From positions 1-64,000 of the forward strand of contig CAIWXX010000165.1 in the NCBI GenBank assembly GCA_903916735.1: DNA of 64,000 bases. Direction: 5' to 3'. This stretch comes from an uncultured Acidobacteriota bacterium. Its GTDB lineage: Bacteria > Acidobacteriota > CAIWXX01. The translations under genes and the position numbers were made by a program. The notes under the pieces were generated by a model, which did no database searches, was not told where the DNA came from, and was given only the letters and a program-made list of their open reading frames with translations. Shown piece by piece: positions 8,702-57,841 of the stretch; within the stretch, counting starts at the first letter, position 1; every line of letters begins with the position of its first letter.

Positions 8702-9676
8702 ATGAGATTTTTCGGAAATCAGCCACGGTTCGGAATCGCATGTTTTGCGGTGCTCTGCATATTCTGTCTCGCTTCCGCAAAACTGAACGCCGATGAGCCC
8801 TTACTGGTGCTCACCATAGGAGCTTCAACGGAATTTGAGCTTCCATATGCGGTGTCCGAAGTGTATCAGGTTGATGAGAAAGCAATCACTGTCCAGTTCG
8901 CAAAGAAGACGACTTTGGTGCGGATTGAAGGTCAATCGATCGGCGATACATCGATTCTTTTGCTTGATGTCTACGGTAATTATCATCAGACACCGGTCAG
9001 GGTGGTCAGTAGCTCTACTCTTCGCTCGTATCAATGGCTGCGACAAAGCTTCTCGGATATTCCAGGTTTGGTGATAACAGTTGAATCCAATAAAGCACGT
9101 GTTCAAGGGGAGATTTTCAGCCAGCGCATACGCCAGCGGATTATTGAAGGGGCGCGGACGATGGGGTATCAAAACGATGTGCGGCTCCATCCGTACGTTT
9201 ATCAGGTTCTACATCTGCCGCCGGAACCAGAGCCGCTACCACCACCGCCGCCGCCTCCTCCTCCCAAACCAAAACCCGCTGGTGACAGTAAATTTCAGAT
9301 GTCGGAGTTTTGGACGTCGACGACATATCCAGGAGGCGCCTCCGAGGAGATCGGGGACTTGCCGTTTGCGTCGTATCTGAGCGGGGTTCGGGACAAGATA
9401 GCGGGATGTTGGCGCCGCATCATGGATGATGCAGGGTCGCTTAAGAGCGGCCTCAGTGCCACGGCACGCGTCCAAATCAATCGCAGCGGACGGATCAGTT
9501 TTGCCTTGATTGAAAAGTCGAGTGGGATCAAGCAATTCGATCAGAAAGTCCTGGCAGCGATAGACGCCGCGGGCCCGCTTCCGAGGCTTCCGGAACAACT
9601 CGCGGGAGATACCCTTACAGTCCACTACCGCTTCTCGTACAAGGGTGCGGGATCCTCGGGGACTCAAGACAAATAG
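8702..9676 (+). CDS. Secreted protein: secretin/pilus N-terminal-like domain joined to a TonB C-terminal domain
   Basis: 324 residues. Signal peptide FGIACFAVLCIFCLASA, cleaved near residue 27. Residues ~34-100 (LVLTIGASTEFELPYAVS, KTTLVRIEGQSIGDTSILLLD) look like the small domain at the N-terminus of CpaC/RcpA-type secretins (Pil_N type). Residues ~100-160 may be a BON/KH-like segment. A proline-rich linker follows (PEPEPLPPPPPPPPPKPKP, ~179-197). The C-terminal ~100 residues resemble a TonB-C/TolA-like domain (YLSGVRDKIAGCWRR, SATARVQINRSGRISFALIEKSSG, FDQKVLAAIDAAGPLPRLP). The protein would sit in the periplasm, with the proline spacer reaching out. No secretin pore domain is present. It stands alone, one gene away from the Tad locus, and could dock pilus or outer-membrane partners. 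The function is inferred. Confidence 0.72.
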   Translation: MRFFGNQPRFGIACFAVLCIFCLASAKLNADEPLLVLTIGASTEFELPYAVSEVYQVDEKAITVQFAKKTTLVRIEGQSIGDTSILLLDVYGNYHQTPVRVVSSSTLRSYQWLRQSFSDIPGLVITVESNKARVQGEIFSQRIRQRIIEGARTMGYQNDVRLHPYVYQVLHLPPEPEPLPPPPPPPPPKPKPAGDSKFQMSEFWTSTTYPGGASEEIGDLPFASYLSGVRDKIAGCWRRIMDDAGSLKSGLSATARVQINRSGRISFALIEKSSGIKQFDQKVLAAIDAAGPLPRLPEQLAGDTLTVHYRFSYKGAGSSGTQDK

Positions 9677-9928: not shown

Positions 9929-11524
9929 CTATTTCAAGCGCTTAAAAACAACACAAGTTTTATCCTGATATTCCGTCTTCCAGTCAGGATCAGCTGCCAT
10001 CGCTATTCGCAACGGCTGTTCCTGTGAGACCAAAGCCCATTGAATCTGATATCGCGCAAACACGCTTTTCCAACTTTCGCTGCCGTTCACATGATCAGGA
10101 TTGCCGATGAGATCCATATACTGCGTCGTAAATTTCTGCCCATAGAAATCCAATCTGCCATCAACAAAGACTTTTATGTGTGGATAGAACTCATAAATCA
10201 AGAATCCGCCCGCCCCCCACTCATTGAATCCATTGCCTTCCGGCATATGAGATCGTAAAAAAGGTATGGCGCCCGTCGGAAACAGGGATGGTTCAAAATT
10301 GAAGTTCATCAATTGAGCTGTTCCGAGGCGGCCGCCGTTGAGAGCTGCAATCCAAAGAAGTGCGCCGACGGCGATGGCGAAAAAGTGTCCTTTGAAGGCA
10401 TGTTCAATCGCGACAACCCGTTCGATGTGCGCAATCACCCGCCTACTGAGATCGAGGAATCGAGGAAGACGATTGAGAAGATCACCGAGTGGTTGTTTCA
10501 CCCCGTCCAGCAAGCGGGCGATAATCGGCGTGCAGATCAGGAACATGACAGGAATATTCCGCGCCGAAATCAACCCCAATGCCGACCATGATGCAAGCAC
10601 GGTGCACTCTTCAAGTGTCGGACGGTGGAGCGAGTACCTCAGCAAGAAGATCAGCATGACGAGCAAAAAGAGAAATGGCTGGAATCCAGTGATCTGGAAA
10701 GTCGGCGAATGGAGCTCGTTATAGGGGTTGATATGATGAACCGCTCTAAAATATCGGAAGAGATAGATGTACATTCCAAAACCATATGGATTTAAAAGCG
10801 TTGCAATTAATCCGGCGATACTCACTGATGTCATGGTCTTGAGCAGCCGTTTTTCGGTTTCATGCTGTGATGGAATGGCCGTCAAGAATCGCAAGAGAGC
10901 ACATCCCAGGAATGTGAGGAGCAGGATGCACCCTGCAATGAACCCTGCATGCAAATTCACCCAGAGAAGCATGAGCGGCGGCAAGAGCCAAACCTGACGC
11001 ATCTGGATTTCTCCGCGGGTGAACCGATCCAACATGCGGAAGAAGATTATGGCAAAAAGGTATGAGACGGGATGAGGGCGTGCGGCCCAATGAAAACCGC
11101 TGCCGGCAACAACGAAAAGCATGAGCGACATGGAAAACACAAATGAATAACCGTCGCGCCTGAGAAAACGATAGAGTAGGGTGTAGCTTGAGGCAATGAC
11201 GAACATGATCATCAGAGTCATACCGTTCAAGCCGGCCAGGCGATCAAAGAGCGCCATGATGACTTCTGTTCCCCATTCATAAGCCACCCACCAGGACTCC
11301 GGCATTGTGAATGAGAAGATGTCCTTGTGGGGAATCGTGTGGTGTTCGATCATGTACTGGCCCGCTCGTATGTGCCACCCGGTATCTCCATCGCGGACGA
11401 AATAGCCCTTTGCTGAACCGAACATCATCGCCAGCAACAGCGCGATGAAAAGCACATCGGCCGTTGAGGGCAAGATCCACATCAGAGACGTATTGAGATG
11501 TTGTGTCTTGGAATCACATTTCAT
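9929..11524 (-). CDS. Polytopic membrane protein, GT-C-like architecture
   Basis: 531 residues with about ten predicted membrane helices. After the first helix comes RDGDTGWHIRAGQYMIEHH and an aromatic IFSFTMPESWWVAYEWG segment, which resembles the first extracytoplasmic loop of GT-C-fold glycosyltransferases (acidic residue, aromatic cluster). The C-terminal ~110 residues form a soluble domain containing GAGGFLIYEFYPHIKVFVDGR and the YQIQWALV stretch. I know this combination from uncharacterised membrane proteins of several phyla, but no enzyme activity is established for it. The start at 11524 has no strong ribosome binding site. The gene points away from the Tad operon, with 76 bases between. 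Confidence 0.7.
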   Translation of the reverse strand: MKCDSKTQHLNTSLMWILPSTADVLFIALLLAMMFGSAKGYFVRDGDTGWHIRAGQYMIEHHTIPHKDIFSFTMPESWWVAYEWGTEVIMALFDRLAGLNGMTLMIMFVIASSYTLLYRFLRRDGYSFVFSMSLMLFVVAGSGFHWAARPHPVSYLFAIIFFRMLDRFTRGEIQMRQVWLLPPLMLLWVNLHAGFIAGCILLLTFLGCALLRFLTAIPSQHETEKRLLKTMTSVSIAGLIATLLNPYGFGMYIYLFRYFRAVHHINPYNELHSPTFQITGFQPFLFLLVMLIFLLRYSLHRPTLEECTVLASWSALGLISARNIPVMFLICTPIIARLLDGVKQPLGDLLNRLPRFLDLSRRVIAHIERVVAIEHAFKGHFFAIAVGALLWIAALNGGRLGTAQLMNFNFEPSLFPTGAIPFLRSHMPEGNGFNEWGAGGFLIYEFYPHIKVFVDGRLDFYGQKFTTQYMDLIGNPDHVNGSESWKSVFARYQIQWALVSQEQPLRIAMAADPDWKTEYQDKTCVVFKRLK

Positions 11525-11600: not shown

Positions 11601-11870
11601 ATGAACGCAGCAATCGCATTTTGCAAACTCTGGAAAGGCAATCCGTTATCATCAATGCGTTCATTTCTCACATCGATCCATGGCTGGGGTTATGTCGCCG
11701 GCCCGGACCGCATTCGCCCCATGTCTCAGAAAGGGCAGGCACTCATCGAATATCTTCTCCTTATGAGCCTGTTTACGATTTTGCTGGCGGCGGCTTTCGT
11801 TAAGTTTCAGGGCCTTCTCCCCGGCTGGTTCAACAACTTTGTCAATGGCGCAAAAGGCCCAACTGTCTAA
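11601..11870 (+). CDS. Flp-type prepilin 1
   Basis: From the ATG at 11601 this is 89 residues. The internal ATG at 11721 would give a 49-residue product closer to the usual Flp size. Neither start has a strong ribosome binding site, so the start is open. The mature part is clear: a prepilin peptidase site KG|QALIEYLLL with glutamate at +5 and tyrosine at +6 (Gly45/Glu50 in the long form), then one hydrophobic helix (YLLLMSLFTILLAAAFV) and a short tail. The EY pair and the tiny size are Flp hallmarks. The protein would be the major or a minor subunit of a Tad pilus, processed at the inner membrane. It is the first gene behind the promoter at 11539; 264 bases separate it from the second prepilin. 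Confidence 0.78.
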   Translation: MNAAIAFCKLWKGNPLSSMRSFLTSIHGWGYVAGPDRIRPMSQKGQALIEYLLLMSLFTILLAAAFVKFQGLLPGWFNNFVNGAKGPTV

Positions 11871-12019
11871 AGCGCAGATACATTAAAGTCATGCCAAAGA
11901 TCTTGAAATGAAAAAGGCGAAAAATAGAAAGTTAATAGCCAATCCAGCGCTTCCATCGATGATTTCAAATCTTGTTTCTCCTTTAGGGCAGTTTTGCCGT
12001 ATCCCTACTCCTTCGCCGC

Positions 12020-12037
12020 AAAGGGTGTCTCCCTTTT
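12020..12037 (+). terminator. Weak hairpin with T-run between prepilins 1 and 2
   Basis: AAAGGG (12020-12025), a 5-nt loop, then CCCTTTT (12031-12037). The stem is only 6 bp. It could trim readthrough so that prepilin 1 is made in excess over downstream genes, as is common in pilus operons, but it is weak. Confidence 0.3.
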
Positions 12038-12134
12038 CCATTTTGTTATTTACTATGTACTTGAGATGGGATTGCTGATACATGATCTCGACTATGCGGT
12101 GGCCATATTATTTAAACGCTAAATGGAGGTGGTT

Positions 12135-12371
12135 ATGAACGACCTTTTTCTCCGTGCATGGCTTGGTGCGATAAATTTACGGGATCGGGTCTTTCGGAGG
12201 AGGAATGAAGAAGGGGCGGTAGCTCTTGAGTATCTTCTCATTATCGGGCTGGTCGTGATTCTTCTGTTCGCGATCCTCTGGCTGTTTATGGATCCGATCA
12301 AGAACATGGTCAACAACGCGCTCAAGAAGATCGACAACTGGCTCACATCAACCAACAACGCGGCTCCTTAG
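12135..12371 (+). CDS. Flp-type prepilin 2
   Basis: 78 residues. The start at 12135 is chosen because GGAGGTGG lies 7-8 bases upstream; an in-frame ATG at 12123 precedes that element. A basic leader (RVFRRRNEEG) ends at a peptidase site EEG|AVALEYLLII with Glu at +5 and Tyr at +6, followed by a 20-residue hydrophobic helix (LLIIGLVVILLFAILWLFM) and a polar tail (NNALKKIDNWLTS). The leader is longer than in prepilin 1. Prepilin 3 starts five bases after its stop, so the two are probably coupled. Confidence 0.85.
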   Translation: MNDLFLRAWLGAINLRDRVFRRRNEEGAVALEYLLIIGLVVILLFAILWLFMDPIKNMVNNALKKIDNWLTSTNNAAP

Positions 12372-12376
12372 CCGTC

Positions 12377-12553
12377 ATGCGCTGGCGGAAGCTGCCGGAC
12401 CCCGTCGCCGGCGAAAAGGGCGCGACGACGATCGAGTACATCATGATTCTCTCGCTGTTTTCCGTCCCTTTGAGCCTCATCGTGGGCACAGCTCTCAGCA
12501 AGATTCTTCGTGAGTTGATCACGGTGATCGTCGAGCATTTCACGCGAGGGTAG
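12377..12553 (+). CDS. Flp-type prepilin 3 (58 residues)
   Basis: A short gene that is easy to overlook. Its protein starts MRWRKLPDPVAGEKG and is cut at EKG|ATTIEYIMILS, again with Glu at +5 and Tyr at +6, followed by a hydrophobic helix (IMILSLFSVPLSLIVGTAL) and the tail RELITVIVEHFTRG. There is no independent ribosome binding site; translation probably reinitiates after prepilin 2. It differs from prepilins 1 and 2 outside the cleavage motif, so the three are not recent duplicates. Role: an Flp-family pilin or minor pilin in the Tad-like system. Confidence 0.82.
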   Translation: MRWRKLPDPVAGEKGATTIEYIMILSLFSVPLSLIVGTALSKILRELITVIVEHFTRG

Positions 12554-12558
12554 AGCCT

Positions 12559-13125
12559 ATGAAAGCGGGGAAGCAGGCTGAATCAGGACAGATCATTATC
12601 GAGACTATTCTGCTGTTGATGGTACTGCTCGCTGTGATCTTCGCTTTCGTCGAGGTCTGTTTGATCGCCGTTGATAAACATGAAGTCGATCGAATCGCTC
12701 GTTATGCCGCTCGCGCATGGTCCGTGCGGCTAAAATGGGATGCTCAAACGGCTCTCTCATCCGCCACAATACTTCGTACATCTTTCGCCGCAAGCAAGTT
12801 CGACCAACTGCAAAAGCAGATTGGACAGGTGAGAGAGACCAGCAGGGTGGATCCCACGGATGGGACTGGGCGGAGTGGACTCGAGTTCCGAACCTTTATT
12901 CCTGTATTGATGCCGTTCACAGAGGAATTCGTCGGCTGGCAGGTCGATCCCCCGGATGGTAATTTGCTGACGGATCCCAGTTGGGCGCCTATCACGCCGG
13001 CCGAAATTCAAGCTCTCACGTCGTTCGGAGTGCGGAGGGTCGTTCGATCGATAACTTTCATTCCAATCGACAGAGAGCCGACGGAAGACCCTTCACAGTA
13101 TGATAATGACTTCAATGATGATTGA
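12559..13125 (+). CDS. TadE-like pseudopilin
   Basis: 188 residues. The N-terminus ESG|QIIIETILLLMVLL has a prepilin peptidase site with Glu at +5, and the following hydrophobic helix continues to an ARYAARAW segment typical of TadE/TadF proteins. The remainder is a small periplasmic domain without recognisable motif. TadE-type proteins are processed by the prepilin peptidase and are needed for Flp pilus assembly. It starts 5 bases after prepilin 3 and ends 6 bases before the cpaB-like gene. Confidence 0.78.
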   Translation: MKAGKQAESGQIIIETILLLMVLLAVIFAFVEVCLIAVDKHEVDRIARYAARAWSVRLKWDAQTALSSATILRTSFAASKFDQLQKQIGQVRETSRVDPTDGTGRSGLEFRTFIPVLMPFTEEFVGWQVDPPDGNLLTDPSWAPITPAEIQALTSFGVRRVVRSITFIPIDREPTEDPSQYDNDFNDD

Positions 13126-13131
13126 GGACAT

Positions 13132-13941
13132 ATGAGACAAGGAATGCGTTGGTTAGTAGCGATTCTTCTGGGATCTTTTGCGGGACTCATCGCTGTCATG
13201 CAGCTCATCCAGAAAGAATCGGAAGTGAAACAGGGACAGAATCCCGTGGAAGTCTACCGTGCCAAAGCGATTATCAAGCCTGGAATCACGATTACGGCTG
13301 AAATGGTCGAGAAAGCACCGATTCCAAACGCCTTTGTTCAGCCCGGGGCCTTACAAACGCCGGACAAAGTCATCGGCCAAGTCACACTTTTGGAGATCGC
13401 GCCCAAAGAGCAGATTGTGGCATCGAAGCTGGCTCCGAGCCTCATGAGACCACTCGCGGAAGTCGTCCCACATGGCATGCGAGGCGTGACGCTTGAAACT
13501 GGACGCGGCCTTGCCGGGCTTGTGCAGGTCGGAGACCGTGTCGATCTGCTGGGAATCTATCAATTTCAGCGTTCAGGATCGTCGCTACTATCAAGCGTGC
13601 GCATGCTTTTCCAGAATGTTCAGGTCATCGCGGTGGGCCAATTCACCGTACCGAATGTGCTCGGTCGTACAAAAAAGTTGTTCGAGGCCGTTGGTGAGAG
13701 CGGCCCGGGAACCGGCGGAACACTGACACTGGCGATGACGCCACCTGACGCTCAGCGTCTCATTCTTGCGCAAGATCTGGGCAGGATCACGATTATCATG
13801 CGTGGAAATGACGAGAGTCCGCAGCCGCTTCAATTCGAAGCCGTCACGGGCGACGATCTACTTGGTTCTCAATACCCCGTCTGGACGCCGGCCACAAAGG
13901 AGTTCAATTTGATGAGCCGTACAGCCCGGGAACAGCATTAA
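13132..13941 (+). CDS. cpaB: Flp pilus assembly protein CpaB/RcpC
   Basis: 269 residues. A single N-terminal membrane helix (WLVAILLGSFAGLIAVMQL) is followed by an SAF-type domain (YRAKAIIKPGITITAEMV, VIGQVTLLEIAPKEQIVASKL) and the RcpC core (RGVTLETGRGLAGLVQVGDRVDLLG), then a C-terminal part with LGRITIIMRGNDES. CpaB is a periplasmic protein anchored in the inner membrane that works with the secretin of Tad systems. No secretin gene is found in this window, so its partner must be elsewhere or replaced. Tightly packed within the operon (6 bases from tadE, 29 from the TadG-like gene). Confidence 0.88.
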   Translation: MRQGMRWLVAILLGSFAGLIAVMQLIQKESEVKQGQNPVEVYRAKAIIKPGITITAEMVEKAPIPNAFVQPGALQTPDKVIGQVTLLEIAPKEQIVASKLAPSLMRPLAEVVPHGMRGVTLETGRGLAGLVQVGDRVDLLGIYQFQRSGSSLLSSVRMLFQNVQVIAVGQFTVPNVLGRTKKLFEAVGESGPGTGGTLTLAMTPPDAQRLILAQDLGRITIIMRGNDESPQPLQFEAVTGDDLLGSQYPVWTPATKEFNLMSRTAREQH

Positions 13942-13970
13942 AGAGAGTCAGCGGAAGAAGAGGTGTCGGC

Positions 13971-15080
13971 GTGCACTGGAACGATCGTCATATGGATGGA
14001 TTAAGAACCAGTGTGACCTCCATCAAGAGGGGCGAATCGGGTCAGATCATCCTCTTCTTCGTCCTCGTCCTCTTCACATTGCTCAGCTTTGCGGCGCTGG
14101 TGATCAGTGTCGGCCAGATGCTCGCGCGCAAAGCGCTCGCCCAGCATCTCGCAGACATCGGCGCATTTGCAGGAGCGAGTCAACAGGCCAGCTCGCTCAA
14201 CTACATCACGGATTTGGATCGAGTCATGTTCAAATTCCTGAGAGCAACGGCATTTGTCACTCGAGCCGGTCCGTTCGATCTGTTTCGCGAGGCAGATAGT
14301 ATTGTTGAACCGGCGCTCGAAGCAGAGCAATACGGGGTTTTCGATCCGCTCAGGGGAGCCGCTGAAGCCGAACTTCTTCAAGCTCCCTCGAAGGCGCGAG
14401 ATCTTGCGACAAGTGTCACTCAGCAGAACATCGCTTCCCTCTTCAAATATGAAAACGCCAACGACTTCACCTATCGAAACCCCGACTTCGATCTGAATCC
14501 CTCTAAATTGACTCAGCTTTTCGAACCGACAGATCCCTATGAACGCTCGGTTTATTGGGGTTATTACACAACCTGCATCCCCTGCCCGGTTCCCTACTGC
14601 GATTGTGCTCCGACGACATGGGCTGATCACTGCATCCAGTATTACGAGTATATGGGCGGAGACCTCCAAAGCTATTCTTTCACGACATACTTCACTCGGA
14701 AATACCGACAGGACTCGCAGCATGAAGATCATTTCTACTGGGAGGTCACGATTCCATCGACTAAGTCGATTCTCGGGATTTTTGGGGATCTTCCTCCTAT
14801 TACAGCCACTGCCAAAGCCAAGCCGTACGGCGGCTACCTGGGAGATGAACCTGAACAAGATGATATCCCGAATGCCTACCTTTACCTGCTTTTGGACTGC
14901 ACATGCATTTTCGGGCAGGAGAATAATATCTATGACAATTTTTACACATACAAAGTAGCGCACGATTTTCAATCGACTTACAAAGCCAAGCTCGATGCCC
15001 TAAATTCCATCGCCGACTCCCAATATCTCGAAGATCTACGAAGCCGTTTCGGAAACGAGTTAGGCTCGGTGATACATTGA
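13971..15080 (+). CDS. TadG-like / TadE-type pilus-associated protein
   Basis: 369 residues starting at GTG with AGAGG upstream; an ATG lies seven codons in. The leader ends ESG|QIILFFVLVLFTLLSFAALVI, a TadG-like N-terminus. The +5 residue is Leu rather than Glu, so cleavage by the prepilin peptidase is doubtful. After the helix comes GQMLARKALAQHLADIGAFAGA, the standard TadG/TadE continuation in which the first surface helix is Ala-rich. The rest is extracytoplasmic and includes a cysteine-rich patch (TTCIPCPVPYCDCAP, near residues 201-215), unusual for this family, which may form disulfides. No von Willebrand factor domain is apparent. Its stop lies at the start of the next TadE-like gene. 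Confidence 0.72.
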   Translation: MHWNDRHMDGLRTSVTSIKRGESGQIILFFVLVLFTLLSFAALVISVGQMLARKALAQHLADIGAFAGASQQASSLNYITDLDRVMFKFLRATAFVTRAGPFDLFREADSIVEPALEAEQYGVFDPLRGAAEAELLQAPSKARDLATSVTQQNIASLFKYENANDFTYRNPDFDLNPSKLTQLFEPTDPYERSVYWGYYTTCIPCPVPYCDCAPTTWADHCIQYYEYMGGDLQSYSFTTYFTRKYRQDSQHEDHFYWEVTIPSTKSILGIFGDLPPITATAKAKPYGGYLGDEPEQDDIPNAYLYLLLDCTCIFGQENNIYDNFYTYKVAHDFQSTYKAKLDALNSIADSQYLEDLRSRFGNELGSVIH

Positions 15081-15082
15081 TA

Positions 15083-15586
15083 ATGACACAGTGGGCGGCC
15101 GCGAAATTCAATGACCGGACGACACGCGAGCTCCGCGGCAACGAACGCGGGGCCACGGCAATCGAGTTGCTCTTTTGCGGCATTTTTTTGCTAATATTGA
15201 TAGCCTTCATTGTCCAACAGGTACATTTTGCGCTGGACTTCACGGAAGCGGCTCTCGATTTACGTTATGATGTGTTGAAGCAATCCCGAACGGATGAGTT
15301 GTCTCACCAGCCTCGCATCATTCCTCCTCTCAGCAAGACCATTAAGTTGCGTTCGAGTCCCTTCCTGAGCTCGTATATTGGGCAGGATCAGAGCGGCATC
15401 GAAAAGACGATTAGCATGACTGCAGCCGGCGGGACTCAAAAGGAAGATGCTCCAGGATTGGTAGAAGTTGCTTACGAACTGGCGGACAATCCAGGGGCGA
15501 CTAATGCTTGGCAACTAGCCATCGCAGGCTTACCCAAGATAGCTGCTTTCGCCTACCTCGCGAGCGGTATTGGATACCGCTTTTAA
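15083..15586 (+). CDS. Second TadE-like pseudopilin
   Basis: 167 residues. ATG at 15083 chosen; a TTG two codons earlier overlaps the previous stop. Leader LRGNERG|ATAIELLFCGIF has the prepilin site with Glu at +5, then a hydrophobic helix (FLLILIAFIVQQVHFAL). The rest is a small periplasmic domain without known motif. Together with the gene at 12559 it makes a TadE/TadF-like pair flanking CpaB and the TadG-like protein. The next gene begins 9 bases after its stop. Confidence 0.78.
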   Translation: MTQWAAAKFNDRTTRELRGNERGATAIELLFCGIFLLILIAFIVQQVHFALDFTEAALDLRYDVLKQSRTDELSHQPRIIPPLSKTIKLRSSPFLSSYIGQDQSGIEKTISMTAAGGTQKEDAPGLVEVAYELADNPGATNAWQLAIAGLPKIAAFAYLASGIGYRF

Positions 15587-15594
15587 GGGTCATC

Positions 15595-17712
15595 ATGGCA
15601 GCTCACGTTATCGGAGTCTTCAGTCAAAAGGGGGGAGTTGGTCGTACACTCATCGCCACGAACCTCGCGCTGACTCTGAAAGAGCGCCTTAAAAAAGAAA
15701 CCATGCTGATCGATTGCAAGGCGCCTTATGCCGGCGACATTCTCCTTGCGCTCGGCGAGCGGAGCGCTCCTAGTCTCATCGACCTTGAAAGCGAGATCAG
15801 TGCTGGAAAAGATGCATGGCTCGGCCGGGTCGCAAGACACGCACAGAATGGGATTTATCTTTTGCCGCTATGCCTGCAGCCTGAACAGCTTTCCCGCCTG
15901 ACTCCGGAGATCCTCGGCGATTCCATCCGATTGGCGTCCGAAGGACTCGATGCCGTCATTATCGATATGGATCTGAGTGATTCCGAGCGCCTAGCAGCGA
16001 CTCTTGATCTATGCACCGAGTTGCTGCTCGTCACGACTCCGGATCTGCTCTGCCTTAATCAAAACTTGAAGGCCATCGACACTCTTCAGACGCACTATTT
16101 TCCGCGCGACAGCATTCTGCTCGTGATCAACCAATACCGGGAGAGCGCGCCGATCAAGTTGAATCTCATCGAGCGTAACCTGAATCTCCAAGCTGCCGCT
16201 GTGTTGCCATTTGACTCGGAAGCGGCTGAGAGCTCGTTGAATCGAGGTGAGCCGCTGGTGACGACTAATCCGAAACACGCCATCTGCCGGGCGTTGTTCA
16301 ATCTCGGGGAATCCATTGCGGCGAGGCCGATTGTGCAGCGAACAGCCGTCGCCAAGAGCTCCAAGACACCTCGCCAGGCAGCAGCGTCGAGCCCGAGCAC
16401 GCCGTTACGGATCTCTTTCGGTCTGCCGATTGCGCAACTCATCCAGCTCAAGCAGAAAATTCACAAGCAGGTCATCGAAGAAATGAACCTGAAACAGATG
16501 GACTATGAGATCCTGTCAAACCCTGATAAGCGCATCGATTTGTACCGTTCCACCGAACTGGTCATCTCACGACTCCTCGATAAGGAAGCGGCGGCCGTCA
16601 CGAATCGTGATCATCGAGTCGTGCTGGGACGGGAAATTTTAAATGAAGCCCTGGGGCTCGGCCCCATCGAATACCTCCTGTCCGATGAGACGGTCACGGA
16701 AATCATGGTCAATGGATCTCATCACATCTACATTGAGCGCAAGGGGAAGATCGAGCTCACACCATATTACTTCACCGGTGAACCGCAGCTACGAGGAATC
16801 ATTGAGCGAATTGTGGTGCAGGTCGGGCGCAGGATCGATGAGAAGAGTCCCATGGTCGACGCGCGCCTCGCGGACGGCTCGCGCGTGAATGCGATCATTC
16901 CTCCACTGGCGCTGGACGGTTCATCGCTGACAATCCGCAAATTTGCCAAAGTACCTCTCAGGGTTGAGTCGCTATTGAAGTACGGATCGCTCAACCAGCA
17001 GATGTCGCGCTTTTTGAACGCGTGTGTGATGGCCCGCAAGAACGTGGTCATCTCCGGAGGCACTGGAAGCGGCAAGACGACTCTGCTCAACATCATGAGC
17101 AGTTTCATCCCCGCCGATGAACGCATCCTGACGATCGAAGATTCCGCGGAACTGCAACTGCCGCAGGAGCATGTCGTGCGTCTCGAGACTCGACCTCCCA
17201 ACATCGAAGGACAAGGTGCCGTGACAATCCGCGATCTCGTTCGCAACTCGTTGCGCATGCGGCCCGATCGGATCGTGGTCGGCGAATGCCGCGGCGCCGA
17301 AGCACTTGACATGTTACAGGCCATGAACACCGGACATGATGGAAGTCTCACGACCGTCCATGCCAATACGCCGCGAGATGCCATTTCCCGACTGGAAACG
17401 ATGTGCCTCATGGCTGGGCTGGATCTGCCGGCGCGCGCCATCCGCACGCAAATCGCATCGGCTGTCCAAATTATCGTTCAAGAGGCGCGACTCAACGATG
17501 GCTCGCGAAAGGTCACTCACATCAGCGAAGTTTGCGGGATGCAGGGAGATATCATCACCATGCAGGATATATTCCTGTTTCGTCAGGATCGCGTTCTGTC
17601 GGATGGGCGGGTCGAGGGCGTCTTCGAGCCGACTGGATATATTCCGACATTCATCGACACACTGCGGCCGAGAGGAATCGATCTCCCGCGTGAAGTGTTT
17701 TTGAGGCAATGA
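15595..17712 (+). CDS. TadZ/CpaE-TadA/CpaF fusion ATPase
   Basis: 705 residues in one chain. ATG at 15595 with AAGGG upstream is used; the frame stays open further upstream but overlaps tadE. Residues 1-260: a MinD/ParA-like domain as in TadZ/CpaE, with deviant Walker A QKGGVGRT (Lys12 kept, the usual second Lys is Arg17) and VIIDMDLSDSE as the Walker B region. Residues ~290-705: a CpaF/TadA secretion ATPase, with an N-terminal helical region, YRSTELVISRLLD, SDETVTEIMVNG, Walker A GGTGSGKTT (488-496), the Asp-box region ILTIEDSAEL, Walker B RPDRIVVGECRG and the His-box region GHDGSLTTVHAN. In most Tad systems these are two proteins: TadZ places the machine at a pole, TadA powers pilus assembly. 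Here both are covalently joined. TadB follows with a 4-base overlap. Confidence 0.93.
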   Translation: MAAHVIGVFSQKGGVGRTLIATNLALTLKERLKKETMLIDCKAPYAGDILLALGERSAPSLIDLESEISAGKDAWLGRVARHAQNGIYLLPLCLQPEQLSRLTPEILGDSIRLASEGLDAVIIDMDLSDSERLAATLDLCTELLLVTTPDLLCLNQNLKAIDTLQTHYFPRDSILLVINQYRESAPIKLNLIERNLNLQAAAVLPFDSEAAESSLNRGEPLVTTNPKHAICRALFNLGESIAARPIVQRTAVAKSSKTPRQAAASSPSTPLRISFGLPIAQLIQLKQKIHKQVIEEMNLKQMDYEILSNPDKRIDLYRSTELVISRLLDKEAAAVTNRDHRVVLGREILNEALGLGPIEYLLSDETVTEIMVNGSHHIYIERKGKIELTPYYFTGEPQLRGIIERIVVQVGRRIDEKSPMVDARLADGSRVNAIIPPLALDGSSLTIRKFAKVPLRVESLLKYGSLNQQMSRFLNACVMARKNVVISGGTGSGKTTLLNIMSSFIPADERILTIEDSAELQLPQEHVVRLETRPPNIEGQGAVTIRDLVRNSLRMRPDRIVVGECRGAEALDMLQAMNTGHDGSLTTVHANTPRDAISRLETMCLMAGLDLPARAIRTQIASAVQIIVQEARLNDGSRKVTHISEVCGMQGDIITMQDIFLFRQDRVLSDGRVEGVFEPTGYIPTFIDTLRPRGIDLPREVFLRQ

Positions 17713-18566
17713 TGACAACAAGAGATTTCATTGTCGTAGGCATTGTGGCATTCTCATTCGGCGCTATCGGATTCCTTCTCTACGACTGGATCGAAATTAG
17801 ATTTCTGCGCTATCTGGACAAGTATGGCGAACAGGTTCGCGAGACCCTTGACGCCATCTTCATTCAGGTCTCCGAACAGCAGGCGCGACGCATCCTGATC
17901 GTCAGCATCATCGGACTTGGGGCTATTGCCTACATTATCTCCTTCAATTTCCTAGTGCTTTTCTATGCGGCCGCCATCGGCATGTTCCTCCCGGTCATGC
18001 TACTCCGATATGCCAAGAAACGCCGGCTGGAGAAGTTCGACCGTCAGATGATGGACATTGTGAATACCGTCAGCAATGCCTTGAAGAGTGGACTGAATTT
18101 GCAGCAGGCGTTCGAATTCCTCGTCAATGAAATGAAACCCCCGATATCGGAGGAATTTGACCTAGTGCTGAAGGAAGTCAGGCTCGGCGCTCAAATTGAG
18201 GATGCACTGGAAAATCTGATCAAGCGAATTCCGCTGCCGGAGCTAGAAATGATGGTCATTGCCATTCAAACACTGCGCCGCACGGGTGGCAACATGATCG
18301 AAACCTTCGATGTGATCGGCCAGGTCATCAAAGAACGGCGCAAGGTCGAAGGAAAAATCAAGGCTCTCACTGCGGAGGGGCTCACTCAAGGGTACATCAT
18401 GTGCGCAATGCCGGCGGTCCTCGGCACCGTCATCTATCTTTTGGATCCCGGATTCATACGGCCCCTCTTCTCTACATTTCTTGGGTGGCTTATGATGAGT
18501 CTCATGGTGGGGCTTATCGCCGTCGGCTGGATTGTGATAAAAAAGATGGTATCGATCGAGGTTTAA
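17709..18566 (+). CDS. tadB: Tad inner-membrane platform protein TadB
   Basis: 285 residues of the T2SSF (GspF-like) family. Two hydrophobic stretches at the N-terminal third (FIVVGIVAFSFGAIGFLLY, ILIVSIIGLGAIAYIISF), a cytoplasmic GspF domain (DRQMMDIVNTVSNALKSG, LQQAFEFLVNEM, LRRTGGNMIETFDVI), and two C-terminal helices. TadB and TadC form the platform that the TadA ATPase acts on. The ATG overlaps the end of the fused ATPase (ATGATGA), suggesting coupled translation in correct ratio. Inner membrane. Confidence 0.92.
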   Translation: MMTTRDFIVVGIVAFSFGAIGFLLYDWIEIRFLRYLDKYGEQVRETLDAIFIQVSEQQARRILIVSIIGLGAIAYIISFNFLVLFYAAAIGMFLPVMLLRYAKKRRLEKFDRQMMDIVNTVSNALKSGLNLQQAFEFLVNEMKPPISEEFDLVLKEVRLGAQIEDALENLIKRIPLPELEMMVIAIQTLRRTGGNMIETFDVIGQVIKERRKVEGKIKALTAEGLTQGYIMCAMPAVLGTVIYLLDPGFIRPLFSTFLGWLMMSLMVGLIAVGWIVIKKMVSIEV

Positions 18567-18567
18567 G

Positions 18568-19425
18568 ATGATACACCTAGGTGTTTTCTTTTTGGCAGCA
18601 GCGGCCGTGGCGGTCGCCGTCTATGGTCTGATACCCGACCAGGAGACACTTGCCGCGATCCGCTCGCGGCAACAGCGAACGCGTGAGATCAAATCGCCCA
18701 TTCTGCGAATTTTCGGCCCACTTCTGACGGCGCTTTCGCCGACCATGTCGAAGTTGGGATCCGAGCGATATCGCAACAAGCTATCTGAGCTCTTGAAATC
18801 CGCTGGGCTTTCCGGCGCCATTGAGATCGAAGAGTTGCTGGCGCTGAAATTCATTTTGAGCGCCGCGCTGGTATTCTTCTGCCTCGTCTATCGGATCCCA
18901 CTCATTTTTTCGCTTATGATCGCGGGCTTCGGCTTCTTTTTCCCTGAGCTCTGGCTTCGGGATCAGGCGAAAGAAAGAAAAGTGAAAATCCGGCGGGATC
19001 TGCCTTTCATGCTCGATCTGCTGACGCTGCTGGTCGAAGCCGGACTCGAGTTCACCGCCGCACTCACGCTCATCACCGACAAATTGAAAGAGGGAGCCCT
19101 TCGACAGGAGCTGCGGATGATGTTGCGAGAATTCCGAGTTGGCGCGCCACGCGTCGAAGCGCTACAAAATCTCGCCGACCGCGTGAATATTCCCGAAATC
19201 AACTCCCTGACGGCGGCTCTTATTCAAGCCTCGGTGATGGGCACGTCCATCGGGAATGTGCTTCGTGTACAGTCCGAGATCATGCGAGCCGAACGCTTTA
19301 CAACCGCCGAAAAAAAGGGAGCCGAAGCTGCCCAGAAAATCATGGTTCCACTTATCCTTTTCATCCTCCCGGCAACCTTGATTGTGATTCTCGGCCCTGT
19401 CCTTATTAAATACCTGTTACACTGA
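18568..19425 (+). CDS. tadC: Tad inner-membrane platform protein TadC
   Basis: 285 residues, the second T2SSF-family platform subunit, starting one base after tadB ends. It shows RRDLPFMLDLLTLLVEAGLEF and TAALTLITDKLKEG near residues 148-180, GAPRVEALQNLADRVNIPE, then TTAEKKGAEAAQKIMVPLI and the terminal helix LILFILPATLIVILGPVL, all typical TadC marks. An N-terminal helix and a central pair (LKFILSAALVFFCLVYRIP) complete the membrane part. Its stop overlaps the next start (TGATG). Confidence 0.92.
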   Translation: MIHLGVFFLAAAAVAVAVYGLIPDQETLAAIRSRQQRTREIKSPILRIFGPLLTALSPTMSKLGSERYRNKLSELLKSAGLSGAIEIEELLALKFILSAALVFFCLVYRIPLIFSLMIAGFGFFFPELWLRDQAKERKVKIRRDLPFMLDLLTLLVEAGLEFTAALTLITDKLKEGALRQELRMMLREFRVGAPRVEALQNLADRVNIPEINSLTAALIQASVMGTSIGNVLRVQSEIMRAERFTTAEKKGAEAAQKIMVPLILFILPATLIVILGPVLIKYLLH

Positions 19426-20558
19426 TGCTGGCACAACTTGAAGTAACGATCGAAGATGTCACCGAGACGATTCCTGTTCTCAAGCCGATATCGATCATCG
19501 GAAAGCGCGAGGGTTGCGATATCGTGCTCAAGCACAAGAGCGTCTCTTCGCAGCATGCGAAGCTCATCGTCACCTACAACTCGGTGACGATTGAAGATCT
19601 TCAGAGCACAAATGGTACGATCATTGGAGGGTTACGGATACAGGCACCGACTGAGCTGAAGGATGGCGAAGAGCTGCAATTCGGCGGCGTCGTCGTGAAG
19701 CTTCGCATTCTCAAACAGGAAGAAAAATCGGCTCAGAGGATGCCTCTATCACAACGACGGCGTCCGAATGAACACAGCGCCAAACAGTCTGAGCTTTTGC
19801 GAGTCCTCGGTGATGGCCTTCCGTTCAAAGAACGGCTCGCGCTCCTCAACAGAGAATTTTCCACGGGTATCTTGAAGCCGAGCTTCCATTGGAAAACTCG
19901 CTTCTTTCTCATCTTGGCGGCTGCGCTCCTTGGTACGGGCCTCTTCCTCATTATCGTTTCTTCCCTCATTGCAGGGAATCGCATCGAACCGGGTTTCCTC
20001 ATGTTGCTCCATGAATTCACGGCTGAAAACCTCCACTCATACGCCCAGCAAGGCGGCGAATTCAGTGCGCGAAGCCTCCATCTGGACCAGCATCCTGAAA
20101 TCATCGGCTACTATCTGCTTGATGATATCGGCCGGCAATTGTTCCCTCGCCGAGATGATGCCAATCCGATAGAGATCAAAGGTTTTTCGGCATCCACCTT
20201 CAACGGCCCTGACATGTTGCCGGGACCGAACGGGAGCTGGTATCTCGCGGAGGTCATTATTCTTGATAACACGCGTAAGGGAATCGCGTGTTTACAATTC
20301 GATGAAAAGCCATCGGAGCGCGGGATCGGACTCTCACCTTTGTTCCTGGCTCTCGCATTGATTTTTCTCATGGTGAGCGGATATCTATTCGTGGGTGCTG
20401 CCGGGCGCATCATCACAAAACCCATAGCACAGATCATCATTGAGATCGACGAGGCTCGCATGGGTCAACGCACTGAATTTTCTCATTTTAAGCATTTCCC
20501 AGAGCTGGATCGTCTCGCTCGTATGCTCGAAAAGATCCTTCTCAAATCTGAGGAATAA
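19425..20558 (+). CDS. FHA-domain membrane protein with periplasmic sensor and HAMP-like segment
   Basis: 377 residues. Residues ~20-100 form an FHA domain: ISIIGKREGCDIVLKHKSVSSQHAKL, then DLQSTNGTIIGG, with the phosphothreonine-contacting Gly-Arg (GKR), Ser-xx-His and Asn positions kept. A membrane helix (FFLILAAALLGTGLFLIIV, ~residue 150) leads to a ~120-residue extracytoplasmic region; a second helix (LFLALALIFLMVSGYLFVG, ~305) is followed by ITKPIAQIIIEIDEARMGQR, which looks like a HAMP linker. The protein then ends without any output domain. The layout (cytoplasmic FHA, periplasmic sensor, HAMP) resembles a receptor whose output is the N-terminal FHA, which could recruit a phosphorylated partner to the pilus machine. 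No Ser/Thr kinase gene occurs in the window. Function inferred. Confidence 0.75.
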   Translation: MLAQLEVTIEDVTETIPVLKPISIIGKREGCDIVLKHKSVSSQHAKLIVTYNSVTIEDLQSTNGTIIGGLRIQAPTELKDGEELQFGGVVVKLRILKQEEKSAQRMPLSQRRRPNEHSAKQSELLRVLGDGLPFKERLALLNREFSTGILKPSFHWKTRFFLILAAALLGTGLFLIIVSSLIAGNRIEPGFLMLLHEFTAENLHSYAQQGGEFSARSLHLDQHPEIIGYYLLDDIGRQLFPRRDDANPIEIKGFSASTFNGPDMLPGPNGSWYLAEVIILDNTRKGIACLQFDEKPSERGIGLSPLFLALALIFLMVSGYLFVGAAGRIITKPIAQIIIEIDEARMGQRTEFSHFKHFPELDRLARMLEKILLKSEE

Positions 20559-20560
20559 TA

Positions 20561-21883
20561 ATGCCGGCCAAGCTGAAAGTCCAAAAAAACGGCCTTGTTG
20601 TCGATGAATATGAAATCAAGAAGCAGGAGATTCTGATCGGCAAGGGCGAACACTGTGACATAGTGCTCAACTACCCCGGCATCGGCCGTGAGATGGCCCG
20701 GTTGACCGCAGAGAAGGATGGATTCTACATTGCCGACGTCAGCGTCCAAGGAGTGTTTATCGACAACCAGAGGATCACGAGACAGAGGGTCAATCCGGGT
20801 CAGGAGATTAATTGCGGGGCAGTCCAACTAGTGCTTGTCGAAGAAGACGGGTTCCGGGATCAGGCCTCCTCGGCAACGATGCTCTGGGAAGCCGCCGGCT
20901 TTGCTGTTCCACCAATCACGGCATATTTGGTTTCAAAGGGAAAACCAGAAGAGGCGCATGTCATTTCAACCGAAGAGTTTGTCATCGGCAGGGGCGTGAA
21001 AGATTGTCAATTGCCGGTTGTTGATAATGCTGCCTCCAAGCGGCATGCACGAATTGCCCGTGCCGGAGAGAAGTTCCTGCTGGCGGACCTCAACAGCACA
21101 AACGGCACGTATCTCAATGCACAGAAAGTGACCGATGTGATCGAGCTCAAGGAAGGGGATGAAATCAGGATCGGGCATGCGGTGTTCATTTTTCGGAAGC
21201 AACTCGATTCGAGTCAGAAGCCCGTATCGCCGCCTCCCGCGAACCTGATCGACATGGAGCAGATCGTCAAGCAGACGGATGACATGCTACCGAAAGCGGC
21301 TCTGCCTGAGACTCCTGCAAAGGCCATCGCTTCGGACAAGAAGCGAATGAGGCTTCTCATCGGGGCGGTCGCCGTGGCCGTGCTTTTTCTCATTCTCATC
21401 ATCGCTCTCAAGCCGCATGGTCCGAAACTCGATCCGGCCCGCGTTTCCGCGATCGAATCGTTGTTCCGCGACGGCAAGCTTGATGATGCTCGCCGGCAAA
21501 TTGATGAGCTGATGAAAACCTTTCCCAGCGACCAGAGACTGAAGTTGCTTGTCGGCCGAATCGAGGACGCGAAAAAGGCCGAAATCTCCGATCGGATCAG
21601 CTCGCTCATCGATCAAGCCAAAGAACGCGAAAATGCATTAGACATCCTCGCCGCCACGGATTTGTGGGCTCAGGTCCTTCAGGCAACCCCCGACAACGCC
21701 GAAATTCAGAAGAAATTCTGCGCCGCTGCCTATCGTATTGCCCTTGTTTACGAGGGCGAGCTTCCTGAGTCGGATAAGGTTAATGCCAGTCGGTATCTCG
21801 AACTGATCCAGAAGCTGGTCAAAAAAGAAAGCGCGTCGGATTATGATACCGCAATGAAGCTTCTCGATACTTTGAAGAAGTAG
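20561..21883 (+). CDS. Double-FHA membrane protein with TPR-like tail
   Basis: 440 residues. First FHA-like domain (~residues 18-90: EILIGKGEHCDIVLNYPGI, IADVSVQGVFIDNQRI) is degenerate, with the Arg/Ser/His set mostly lost (GKGE, GREMA). The second (~residues 137-215: FVIGRGVKDCQLPVVDNAAS, KRHARI, DLNSTNGTYLNAQ) keeps the canonical GRG, SxRH and NG. A proline-rich linker follows, then one membrane helix (LLIGAVAVAVLFLILIIAL, ~residue 264) and a ~150-residue helical tail, partly TPR-like (LFRDGKLDDARRQIDELMK). The tail would lie in the periplasm. It starts 2 bases after the first FHA gene and may stand in for TadD, which is missing here. Function inferred. Confidence 0.75.
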   Translation: MPAKLKVQKNGLVVDEYEIKKQEILIGKGEHCDIVLNYPGIGREMARLTAEKDGFYIADVSVQGVFIDNQRITRQRVNPGQEINCGAVQLVLVEEDGFRDQASSATMLWEAAGFAVPPITAYLVSKGKPEEAHVISTEEFVIGRGVKDCQLPVVDNAASKRHARIARAGEKFLLADLNSTNGTYLNAQKVTDVIELKEGDEIRIGHAVFIFRKQLDSSQKPVSPPPANLIDMEQIVKQTDDMLPKAALPETPAKAIASDKKRMRLLIGAVAVAVLFLILIIALKPHGPKLDPARVSAIESLFRDGKLDDARRQIDELMKTFPSDQRLKLLVGRIEDAKKAEISDRISSLIDQAKERENALDILAATDLWAQVLQATPDNAEIQKKFCAAAYRIALVYEGELPESDKVNASRYLELIQKLVKKESASDYDTAMKLLDTLKK

Positions 21884-21893
21884 CCGACAGCAA

Positions 21894-23678
21894 ATGAACG
21901 AACGGGAATTCGGGATCAAGCTCCTGGATAGCTTGTTGAGAGCGAGGCGCTTGAGTGAGGCGGAAGCGCAGAAGGTAAGGGCACGTATAGAACAGATCCC
22001 TGATTTCGAATCCGCCCTCTATGCATGCACGAATCTGCAGGCTGAGGATCTTCGGCCGGCGCTTGAAGAGGTTTCGGGAACTCGTGCGGTCGACCCTTCG
22101 CTCATGGCTATCGACCCGGACTTCATGGCGAATGTGCTGCAATTGATCCCGGTTCACATCTTGTTACGAGAATCGGCATTTCCGATACGCCATGAAGGCA
22201 ACGTCTTGAGCGTTGCCATCTTCAATCCACTCGACCGGCAACGGCTCGATCGCCTTGAAGGTGTCAGCGGTCTGCAGGTGGTGGGGGTCGCCTGTCACAA
22301 GGACGGCGTCATCGGCGCGCACGAAAAACAATGTGATTTATCGGGCCTTCCGGAGGGGTGGCAATCGCATTCAATCGAAGAGCTCTATTCAGAGGTTATT
22401 AGTGAACGCGAGTCGGTTTCGCTTGAAGAGCTCCAGGAACAGGCTTTGCTCTGCATTAATGTTAACTATGATGCGCTCAGCAAAGGAGGCAAAGCGCTAG
22501 AAATATTTCTGCGCAGGTACCAGTTGATCAGGTATTTCCATCAGACGCTCGTACGGATGGTTCGAGCCGGCTGCAGCGACATTCATATTGAGCCGCAAGA
22601 AGCAAGTCTCCGAATTCGGACTCGTATTGATGGCGTCTTACGGATGGTGGCCGTGCTGCCGGCGAGTTTCGGAAAGCCGCTCCTCTACCGGGTGCAAGCC
22701 ATGAGCGGACTTGAAACAGGACCGTGCGCGGAACCAAAGGATGGCCATATCGGATATAACCTGGTGCCGGGGCAAGCCGTTGAGTTTCGTGTGTCGATAC
22801 TCCCGTCGATTTTCGGAGAGAAAATCGTGCTGCGTGCGCTGCGGCGGAACACGAAGGGCGTGCCGATTGCCGGCTTTGGCATGGACCTGGAAGATGAGCG
22901 CTATGTTCAATCCGTCATCCATGCTCCCAACGGACTTGTGCTCGTGACCGGTCCAACCGGCAGCGGTAAGACATCGACGCTCTATTCAGTCCTTGACGAG
23001 ATCAACGGGAACGGTGTCAACATCGTCACGGCGGAGGATCCGGTGGAGCGTGTGATCGCCGGGACAACGCAAGTACTGTGCGGCGAGGAGAGCAAGATCA
23101 CTTTCGCAGATGCGCTGAGATCGTTTCTACGGCAGGATCCTGATATCGTGATGGTGGGTGAGATTCGAGATGCGGAGACGTGCGACATTGCATTGAAGGC
23201 GGCGCTCACGGGGCACCTTGTGCTGAGTACGCTGCACACCAATGATGCGCCGTCGGCGATTCTACGACTACTGAATCTCGGGATGGAGCCTTTCACCATT
23301 GCCGCAGCTCTGCGGATGATAGTCGCTCAACGTCTCGTGCGAATGCTTTGTAAGAACTGTGCAACGAATGCGCCTTTATCAGAAGAGGCACGGAAGGAGA
23401 TACTTGCGGCCGAATTGAAACCCCCGCAGGAGTTGCCAACGGCACGTGGATGTAGTTCCTGCGGTGGCACCGGCTACTCAGGGCGCACGGGTGTTTTCGA
23501 GGTGCTGCGGGTCGACGATGCGATCCGGGATGCAATAGGCCGTCGCGCCGCTCTGTCTGAGATCCGCGATCTCGCCATTCGCGCAGGCATGCGTCCGCTT
23601 CGCCGGCGCGGTCTGCAGCTCGTCCTGGCCGGTGTTACCTCCATCGATGAAGTCTGCCGCCACACCCTTGCACAATAG
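21894..23678 (+). CDS. GspE/PilB-family secretion or pilus ATPase
   Basis: 594 residues. An N-terminal MshEN/GspE-N-like region (~1-170, LLDSLLRARRLSEAEAQKV) is followed by the hexameric ATPase core: SDIHIEPQEASLRIRTRIDG near residue 225, Walker A GPTGSGKTS (353-361), the Asp box near TAEDPVER, Walker B QDPDIVMVGEIRD, the His-box region GHLVLSTLHTND. A tetracysteine zinc module (CKNC, then CSSC) lies near residues 484-525. These are hallmarks of the type II secretion/type IV pilus extension branch, not of the TadA branch. It closes the Tad-like operon, 10 bases after the double-FHA gene. No GspF, pilin or secretin of the T2SS/T4P type is adjacent, so its role here is open. Confidence 0.88.
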   Translation: MNEREFGIKLLDSLLRARRLSEAEAQKVRARIEQIPDFESALYACTNLQAEDLRPALEEVSGTRAVDPSLMAIDPDFMANVLQLIPVHILLRESAFPIRHEGNVLSVAIFNPLDRQRLDRLEGVSGLQVVGVACHKDGVIGAHEKQCDLSGLPEGWQSHSIEELYSEVISERESVSLEELQEQALLCINVNYDALSKGGKALEIFLRRYQLIRYFHQTLVRMVRAGCSDIHIEPQEASLRIRTRIDGVLRMVAVLPASFGKPLLYRVQAMSGLETGPCAEPKDGHIGYNLVPGQAVEFRVSILPSIFGEKIVLRALRRNTKGVPIAGFGMDLEDERYVQSVIHAPNGLVLVTGPTGSGKTSTLYSVLDEINGNGVNIVTAEDPVERVIAGTTQVLCGEESKITFADALRSFLRQDPDIVMVGEIRDAETCDIALKAALTGHLVLSTLHTNDAPSAILRLLNLGMEPFTIAAALRMIVAQRLVRMLCKNCATNAPLSEEARKEILAAELKPPQELPTARGCSSCGGTGYSGRTGVFEVLRVDDAIRDAIGRRAALSEIRDLAIRAGMRPLRRRGLQLVLAGVTSIDEVCRHTLAQ

Positions 23679-23866: not shown

Positions 23867-23965
23867 TCAAGACGGTTGAGCCCATGAAATCATATTGGCA
23901 TCCGCTTTTCTTTAGATCCAGCCGAGGAATGATCTCTTCGATTGGTCGGTTCCGGAGATAAAAAA

Positions 23966-56857: not shown

Positions 56858-57841
56858 TTATTCCGCGATCGTGGATGGAGGCGGGAGCGCCGGGCGACAT
56901 CGTGCCAGTCCCGACGGGTGACTCGCAAACCACGCGAACGCATCTGCTCGATCTTGCTCCAACTGCAAGCGCAATGAAGCAACGGATTCGAAATTGATTT
57001 CGTCCCGTTTCTTTGCGAGAAAAAAAACCTCAAGTCTTTTACCATAGAGATCGCCGTTGAATCCCAGCAAATGGCTTTCGATTGTCAGCATATTGCCTTC
57101 ACCGAAAGTCGGCCGAAAGCCAATATTGGTCATTGCAGACCAAATTGCACTTCCATCGAAGCAGAGAGTCAGATACACACCAGGTGGTGGTATGATTTCC
57201 TGTTCAGCAGCAATATTGGCTGTTGGAAACCCAAGTCCTGTTCCCCGGCGATCACCGAGGACGACTTCGCCTTCGACGGCATAAGGACGTCCTAGCAACT
57301 CCTCGGCTTCCGCCAGATCCGAGCGAGAGAGACAGGTACGGATCCATGTGGAGCTGACGACATGACCTCGATGGCGAAAAGGCGGAACACCGATGACGCT
57401 GAAACCGTGCATATCTCCGAGCTCTTTGAGAGTGTCAGCGTTTCCTTTTCGATCGTGACCAAAATTAAATAATGTCCCAACCACAACACCGGCTGCCTTA
57501 AGTCGTTTCAGAAGAATCTCCTCCATGAACTGCCTCGGGGAAAGCATTGAGAACTGGTGAGTGAAAGGAAACAAAAGGACATCTGAAAACCCCCAATCCT
57601 TCAGAATCCGAAGTTTCTGTTCTCGCGATTGAAGGAGACGGAGGGAGCCATCTCCCTTCAGTACTTTTGTCGGATGAGGATCAAATGTGAAGACCAGAGT
57701 TGTCAGATTCTTCTGCGCGGTGAGATCCCTGGCACGAGCCAGAATCATAGCATGGCCGCAGTGGAGACCGTCAAAATTGCCGAGAGCGATGACAGAGCCG
57801 CAAGGAAGCTCGGGCGAGTCAAGGGTTCTGTGGATTCGCAT
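56858..57841 (-). CDS. ribF: Bifunctional riboflavin kinase/FAD synthetase
   Basis: 327 residues from 57841; an upstream in-frame ATG lies within the previous coding region. N-terminal nucleotidyltransferase (ALGNFDGLHCGHAMILARA, FTFDPHPTKVLKGDG, GFSDVLLFPFTHQFSML, VVGTLFNFGHDRKGNADTL, HVVSSTWIRTCL) and C-terminal riboflavin kinase (GEVVLGDRRGTGLGFPTANI, PPPGVYLTL, NIGFRPTFGEGNMLTIESHLL). Makes FMN then FAD. The start overlaps the end of the DUF4388 gene by 23 bases, so translation is coupled. Confidence 0.93.
   Translation of the reverse strand: MRIHRTLDSPELPCGSVIALGNFDGLHCGHAMILARARDLTAQKNLTTLVFTFDPHPTKVLKGDGSLRLLQSREQKLRILKDWGFSDVLLFPFTHQFSMLSPRQFMEEILLKRLKAAGVVVGTLFNFGHDRKGNADTLKELGDMHGFSVIGVPPFRHRGHVVSSTWIRTCLSRSDLAEAEELLGRPYAVEGEVVLGDRRGTGLGFPTANIAAEQEIIPPPGVYLTLCFDGSAIWSAMTNIGFRPTFGEGNMLTIESHLLGFNGDLYGKRLEVFFLAKKRDEINFESVASLRLQLEQDRADAFAWFASHPSGLARCRPALPPPSTIAE

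Follow-up and report, generated by a model that had tools for sequence, protein, structure and literature searches.

The stretch of DNA analyzed here (the window) comprises 64,000 nucleotides of a contig, C165, from an uncultured Acidobacteriota bacterium. At positions 8702..9676 of its forward strand a single, uninterrupted reading frame of 324 codons, preceded by a ribosome-binding-like AGGAAG, encodes a 324-aa protein with the architecture Pil_N-BON-proline linker-TolA_C, as delineated from the ORF, Pfam matches, homologues, hhalign comparisons and the predicted fold. By eye, its N-terminus resembles a cleavable signal peptide of about residues 1-26 (8702..8779), with cleavage at ASA/K or LNA/D. 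This is followed on the same strand by a Pil_N or VirB9-NTD-like domain homologous to the N-domain of RcpA/CpaC (residues 35-101; 8804..9004; Pfam, profile, hhalign and fold), a BON-like domain with an alpha-beta-beta-alpha-beta arrangement (residues about 104-163; 9011..9190; predicted fold and alignment), the proline-rich linker PEPEPLPPPPPPPPPKPKP (residues 174-192; 9221..9277; from the sequence) and a TolA/TonB_2-type C-terminal domain, with its core at residues 223-313 and an upstream stretch alignable to the organism's own TolA (9287..9640; Pfam, NCBIfam and Foldseek). No transmembrane segment beyond the N-terminal signal was seen by eye. The first-pass annotation, which had described an exported protein with a Pil_N-type N-terminal half, a proline linker, a TonB-C-like C-terminal half and no membrane anchor besides the signal peptide, agrees with this layout; it missed the BON domain, the affinity to TolA, the adjacent Tad locus and the lack of a linked secretin.

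A Tad locus (11601-23678) begins 2 kb downstream of this gene. Between the two sits a divergent gene (9929..11524, reverse strand) coding for a 531-aa multi-pass membrane protein with no Pfam match, which is kept in the Tad loci of two other genomes (G001 and G119). The genes of the Tad locus all lie on the forward strand, beginning with a Flp-like pilin recognized by its motif by eye (pilin 1; 11601..11870; no Pfam match, homologue in G001) and a second Flp pilin (pilin 2; 12123..12371; Flp_Fap E 5e-4, below the cut-off). They are followed by a TadE-like protein (12559..13125), a CpaB/RcpC protein (13132..13941; RcpC domain 4e-18) that lacks the VEVIRG hairpin motif usually seen at the C-terminus, a TadG-like protein with a Tad domain (13971..15080), a small protein in the TadE position that has no Pfam match and is conserved in G001 (15077..15586), a TadZ-TadA (CpaE-CpaF) fusion in one ORF (15508..17712), TadB (17709..18566) and TadC (18568..19425). 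The locus closes with an FHA-domain membrane protein (19425..20558), a double-FHA protein with a transmembrane helix (by eye) and a TPR-like C-terminus (20561..21883), and a GspE/PilB-like ATPase with an MshEN domain (21894..23678). Flp pilin, CpaB, TadZ, TadA, TadB, TadC and TadE/G are all present, the pilin calls being weak. A third small Flp-like ORF of about 58 aa, with the motif GATTIEYIMILSLF, lies between pilin 2 and TadE (12377-12553). The ATPase that follows the Tad and FHA genes is the second of the locus, and relatives take the corresponding position in several sister loci. Just past the locus, 23942-27778 encodes a sensor histidine kinase of 1278 aa, whose N-terminal membrane/periplasmic portion is very large. 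Elsewhere in the window, the product of 57819-59099 has a region resembling DUF4388 by eye, followed by a terminal proline-rich tail, PAPPTPPPPPPP.

A search of 60 genomes of the phylum recovered full-length matches to the 324-aa protein only from G001, recorded as an Acidobacteria groundwater MAG of the same class, which is represented in the set by this genome and our own (G000); a scan of genome contigs likewise found homologues in this one related genome. The two G001 proteins, on contigs C78 (59% identity) and C47 (50%), have the same architecture as the window copy, with the proline linker kept in one and shortened in the other. Its recurrence in a second genome shows that this architecture is no artefact of assembly, and a chimeric assembly was rejected on this ground. 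The C47 gene immediately precedes a TadZ-TadA gene, inside a partly duplicated Tad locus, extending the linkage to Tad genes to two genomes; the C78 gene is solitary and has no Tad linkage.

Affinities of the two halves

The Pfam T2SS-T3SS_pil_N model matches residues 35-101 with an E-value of 2e-3 and 18 bits, under its 23-bit cut-off, and the Pfam BON model makes no call on the sequence itself, where the BON domain was recognized from predicted fold and alignment. Plain HMMER with a Pil_N-secretin profile matched one G001 copy and missed the window copy, so that the homology of the latter rests on profile-profile and reverse-profile comparisons and on fold. A profile of 141 N-terminal residues, built from 3 sequences and searched against 297 genomes, gave nine matches: the three Pil_N-BON-TolA_C proteins, three Pil_N-type proteins (G068, G089 and G098) encoded in Tad loci wherever context was available, and three genuine Tad secretins that had not been preselected (G119, G211 and G146). 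Comparison by hhalign of the N-terminal half with the set of 27 Pil_N proteins that the phylum yielded, of which 26 carry the Pfam Secretin domain and 22 a BON domain, gave 82% (E 1e-5) across both Pil_N and BON. A first AlphaFold model from 3 aligned rows was poor (pLDDT 54), and its N-domain nonetheless matched VirB9 N-terminal domains. The model from 29 rows (pLDDT 91) shows an Ig-like domain and, after it, a BON fold (alpha-beta-beta-alpha-beta); its top PDB match is the Tad-type secretin 9wfd (E 1.4e-6, 134 columns), with the VirB9/DotH N-domains next. The entries 9wfd and 8jvb have a common sequence entry, and a CpaC profile matches 8jvb along its length. The 29-row alignment includes secretins, so they partly inform this fold, and the model is not entirely independent of them. 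The VirB9-like structural match fits the published description of the RcpA N-domain as VirB9-like (PMC10499894). Several independent tests agree, and chance similarity was therefore rejected: the N-terminal half is homologous to the Tad secretins RcpA/CpaC, and the earlier secretin-type reading of it withstood the profile, hhalign and fold comparisons that could have refuted it.

The C-terminal half adopts the TolA/TonB fold, as the first-pass annotation had proposed in its TonB version. Pfam TonB_2 matches residues 223-299 above its cut-off (E 3e-12), the NCBIfam model TIGR01352 matches at E 2e-9 and tolA_full at 8e-7, under its own cut-off, and Foldseek places the C-domains of HasB, TolA and TonB among the matches. 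Its closest relative in the own genome (40% over residues 193-314) is the TolA of a cluster on contig C111 that reads as tolQ-tolR-tolA-tolB-pal-ybgF, a cluster also found in G001, and the alignment to this resident TolA reaches upstream of the domain. The C-terminal domain is nearer to the TolA of its own genome than to classical TonB. By eye, no exbBD or tolQR genes were seen among the window ORFs adjoining the gene or beside the G001 copies. A role as a classical TonB transducer was rejected, as the gene has no exb/tol neighbors and the protein no clear anchor. In both genomes the nearest relative is the TolA encoded by an intact tol-pal cluster, and the alignment to it continues upstream of the domain. 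This raises the alternative that the TolA-like domain binds TolB, Pal or an OmpA-like protein and that the Tad machine is thereby recruited to or positioned at Tol-Pal sites, e.g. the division septum, with no replacement of the pore. However, a domain tree does not resolve the fusion domain beside the resident TolA or as derived from it, and we regard this alternative as improbable.

The missing secretin and the cpaC slot

The first-pass annotation had suggested a survey of the neighborhood for a linked secretin. This survey uncovered the Tad locus and no secretin: PF00263 has no match on contig C165, the contig of the Tad locus. Within the 324-aa protein Pfam likewise finds no secretin barrel, and an hhalign comparison of its C-terminus with the C-terminal part of Tad secretins gave 0.4%; failing this barrel test, the protein falls outside the RcpA/CpaC secretins. 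The own genome, which is 98.7% complete, encodes five secretins, all on other contigs and none with Pil_N; it yielded no other convincing Pil_N match and no CpaC. With no secretin linked to it, the protein is probably a replacement for one and not an adaptor to one encoded nearby. Hence, of the earlier proposal of a periplasmic adaptor between a pilus machine and the outer membrane, the link to a pilus stands, based on the Tad locus 2 kb away and the homologue within a G001 Tad locus, the linked secretin does not, and the adaptor function is one that we infer.

By eye, four of the five unlinked secretins are lipoprotein-type, and the fifth is apparently a type IVa pilus PilQ. The four (L022-L025) begin with a TPR-like part and, if complete, extend far at the C-terminus, again by eye; they are candidates for a borrowed pore. 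It is conceivable that the protein acts as an accessory comparable to CpaI, an RcpA-N-like periplasmic protein that bridges CpaB and CpaC in Caulobacter (PMC13170226), and connects an otherwise conventional Tad machine to one of these unlinked secretins, PilQ or lipoprotein-type, as its pore. Co-option of secretins is said to be common (PMC6668835), and five are at hand. However, not one of them carries Pil_N or lies on the Tad contig, and by eye one appears to be a type IVa PilQ and the remainder are lipoprotein-type; we consider this explanation unlikely, if still a serious competitor.

The wider phyletic context of the locus is provided by the TadZ-TadA fusion, which is limited to a small set of loci. 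In a TadA tree these fusions form one clade, with G211 inside it, marking a clade of Acidobacteriota-type Tad loci. Depending on the lineage, the cpaC slot of the fusion clade is occupied by a canonical secretin, a divergent secretin, a protein with an unknown non-secretin domain or the TolA-C form. G119 has a canonical secretin. In G252, G142, G053, G212, G324 and G366 the slot holds a Pil_N-BON protein with a divergent secretin-like end; the G142 protein aligns with PF00263 positions 133-168 at 26.5 bits (cut-off 27.5), and hhalign of four such C-termini gave 55% (E 1e-4). The proteins encoded at L129 8939-10123, L161 6159-7436, L162 9926-11227, L163 6356-7771, L164 6207-7451 and L165 5762-7060 combine Pil_N-BON and a proline-rich linker with a C-terminus that is secretin-like, strongly divergent and at or below the Pfam threshold. 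In G068, G098 and a contig-edge copy from G089 the Pil_N-BON unit is joined to a C-terminus unrelated to secretins (hhalign 0.2%), and in G068 and G098 the gene of this protein without a secretin domain is located directly between cpaB and tadZA. At L053 850-2208, L054 1241-2431 and L052 3-1043, Pil_N-BON is followed by a non-secretin C-terminal domain of about 210 residues, the L053 and L054 genes lying directly after that for CpaB. G000 and G001 have the TolA-C form. In the motor tree the G068/G098 loci are sister to the G000/G001 loci (support 98/95). As these groups are sisters, the barrel may, on a parsimony reading, have been lost once in their common ancestor.

RcpC/CpaB is known to bind the RcpA N-domain (PMC12307814). 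The ordinary CpaBs that we retrieved mostly have a proline-rich stretch and a VEVIRG-like motif at the end, a plausible counterpart of the beta-hairpin in contact with the N-domain of RcpA (PMC12307814). This motif is missing from the fusion-clade CpaBs, including that of G119, which has kept its secretin; accordingly, the proposal that the CpaB hairpin was lost together with the secretin failed. With the motif missing, the CpaB contact in this clade is not simply transferable from Pseudomonas, and the known CpaB-secretin contact may be unconserved there.

A proposed secretin-derived adaptor and its relation to known systems

These observations suggest how such a protein might have emerged and how it might function. 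An ancestral Tad secretin of the CpaC/RcpA type would have kept its signal peptide and periplasmic Pil_N-BON module and lost the secretin barrel, in place of which a TolA-type C-terminal domain would have been installed on a proline linker. In the neighboring Tad machine, the Pil_N-BON module would sit on the CpaB alignment complex and form or cap a ring in the periplasm, the linker would pass through or along the peptidoglycan, and the TolA-like domain would anchor the machine to a partner at the outer membrane or on the Pal/TolB side. The inner-membrane Tad motor could thereby be aligned beneath a putative exit pore encoded elsewhere. We give an even chance to the central claim that the protein is a secretin-derived periplasmic adaptor, with Pil_N-BON on CpaB and the TolA-like part on an outer-membrane/peptidoglycan or Pal/TolB-side partner, its docking, partner and pore being the conjectural components. 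The Pil_N-BON homology, the TolA-type domain, the adjacency to Tad genes, the lack of a Pil_N-bearing secretin and the barrel-less slot proteins of G068 and G098 argue for it, whereas the 2 kb gap behind a divergent gene, the unlinked C78 homologue and the CpaB without the hairpin motif argue against it. Furthermore, the connection between BON and TolA domains is a long flexible tail, so that an ordered dock at the outer membrane is not guaranteed. Precedents exist for its components, in the form of CpaI as a barrel-less RcpA-N-like bridge and of TonB3 as a TonB protein required for type IVa pili (PMC5285504).

A distinct alternative is that the filament never leaves the cell, i.e. that it is a periplasmic pseudopilus or an envelope sensor, tethered to the peptidoglycan or outer membrane by the TolA-like domain. 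This would be in line with a locus without a secretin, adjoined by FHA proteins and a large sensor kinase, and with the other non-secretin domains in the slot of sister lineages. However, the retention of Flp pilins, TadE/G proteins and the complete motor suggests an exported pilus, making the periplasmic filament rather improbable. Returning to the secretin-derived adaptor, it can be set within a broader and more tentative scenario, in which a diderm Tad lineage lost its secretin stepwise, from canonical through divergent to lost, as the N-domains became a TolA-coupled adaptor and the pilus came to cross the outer membrane by a non-cognate or non-secretin pore, possibly one tied to Tol-Pal. 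Secretins have been regarded as invariant in the Tad and other type IV filament machinery of diderms. A clade of such bacteria in which canonical secretins, divergent secretins and TolA-C or unknown domains all occur would offer a way to ask how a pilus exits the cell without a secretin of its own, and which part of a secretin serves alignment rather than the pore.

A literature search found no fusion of Pil_N with TonB or of TolA with a secretin, an absence that is weak evidence; nevertheless, several known systems share parts of this design. RcpA/CpaC resembles the protein in the VirB9-like Pil_N and BON-type periplasmic module, the Tad linkage and the export, but has the secretin barrel where the latter has a proline linker and a TolA-type domain. 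CpaI of Caulobacter crescentus, too, is a barrel-less Pil_N-type protein that acts in the periplasm as part of a Tad system; however, it is small and works with the CpaC secretin (PMC13170226), whereas the present protein adds BON and TolA-C in a genome where no CpaC was found. The TolA/TonB family, including TonB3 of P. aeruginosa, shares the proline-rich linker and the C-terminal TolA/TonB fold, and differs in that our protein has no clear N-terminal anchor for TolQR/ExbBD, possesses secretin N-domains and is encoded away from tol/exb genes. The Kil system of Myxococcus xanthus is, like the locus described here, a Tad-like machine rich in FHA proteins, and its secretin is unusual (PMC8460266). 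That secretin, KilC, is short and has no N0, whereas here the N-domains are kept and the secretin is gone. Finally, Tad loci without a secretin are known from monoderms, and in the literature consulted such loss goes along with adapting to one membrane (PMC6668835). In contrast, the present organism is a diderm, with PilQ and Tol-Pal, and keeps the secretin N-domains, which suggests a two-membrane bacterium that reaches its outer membrane in another way.
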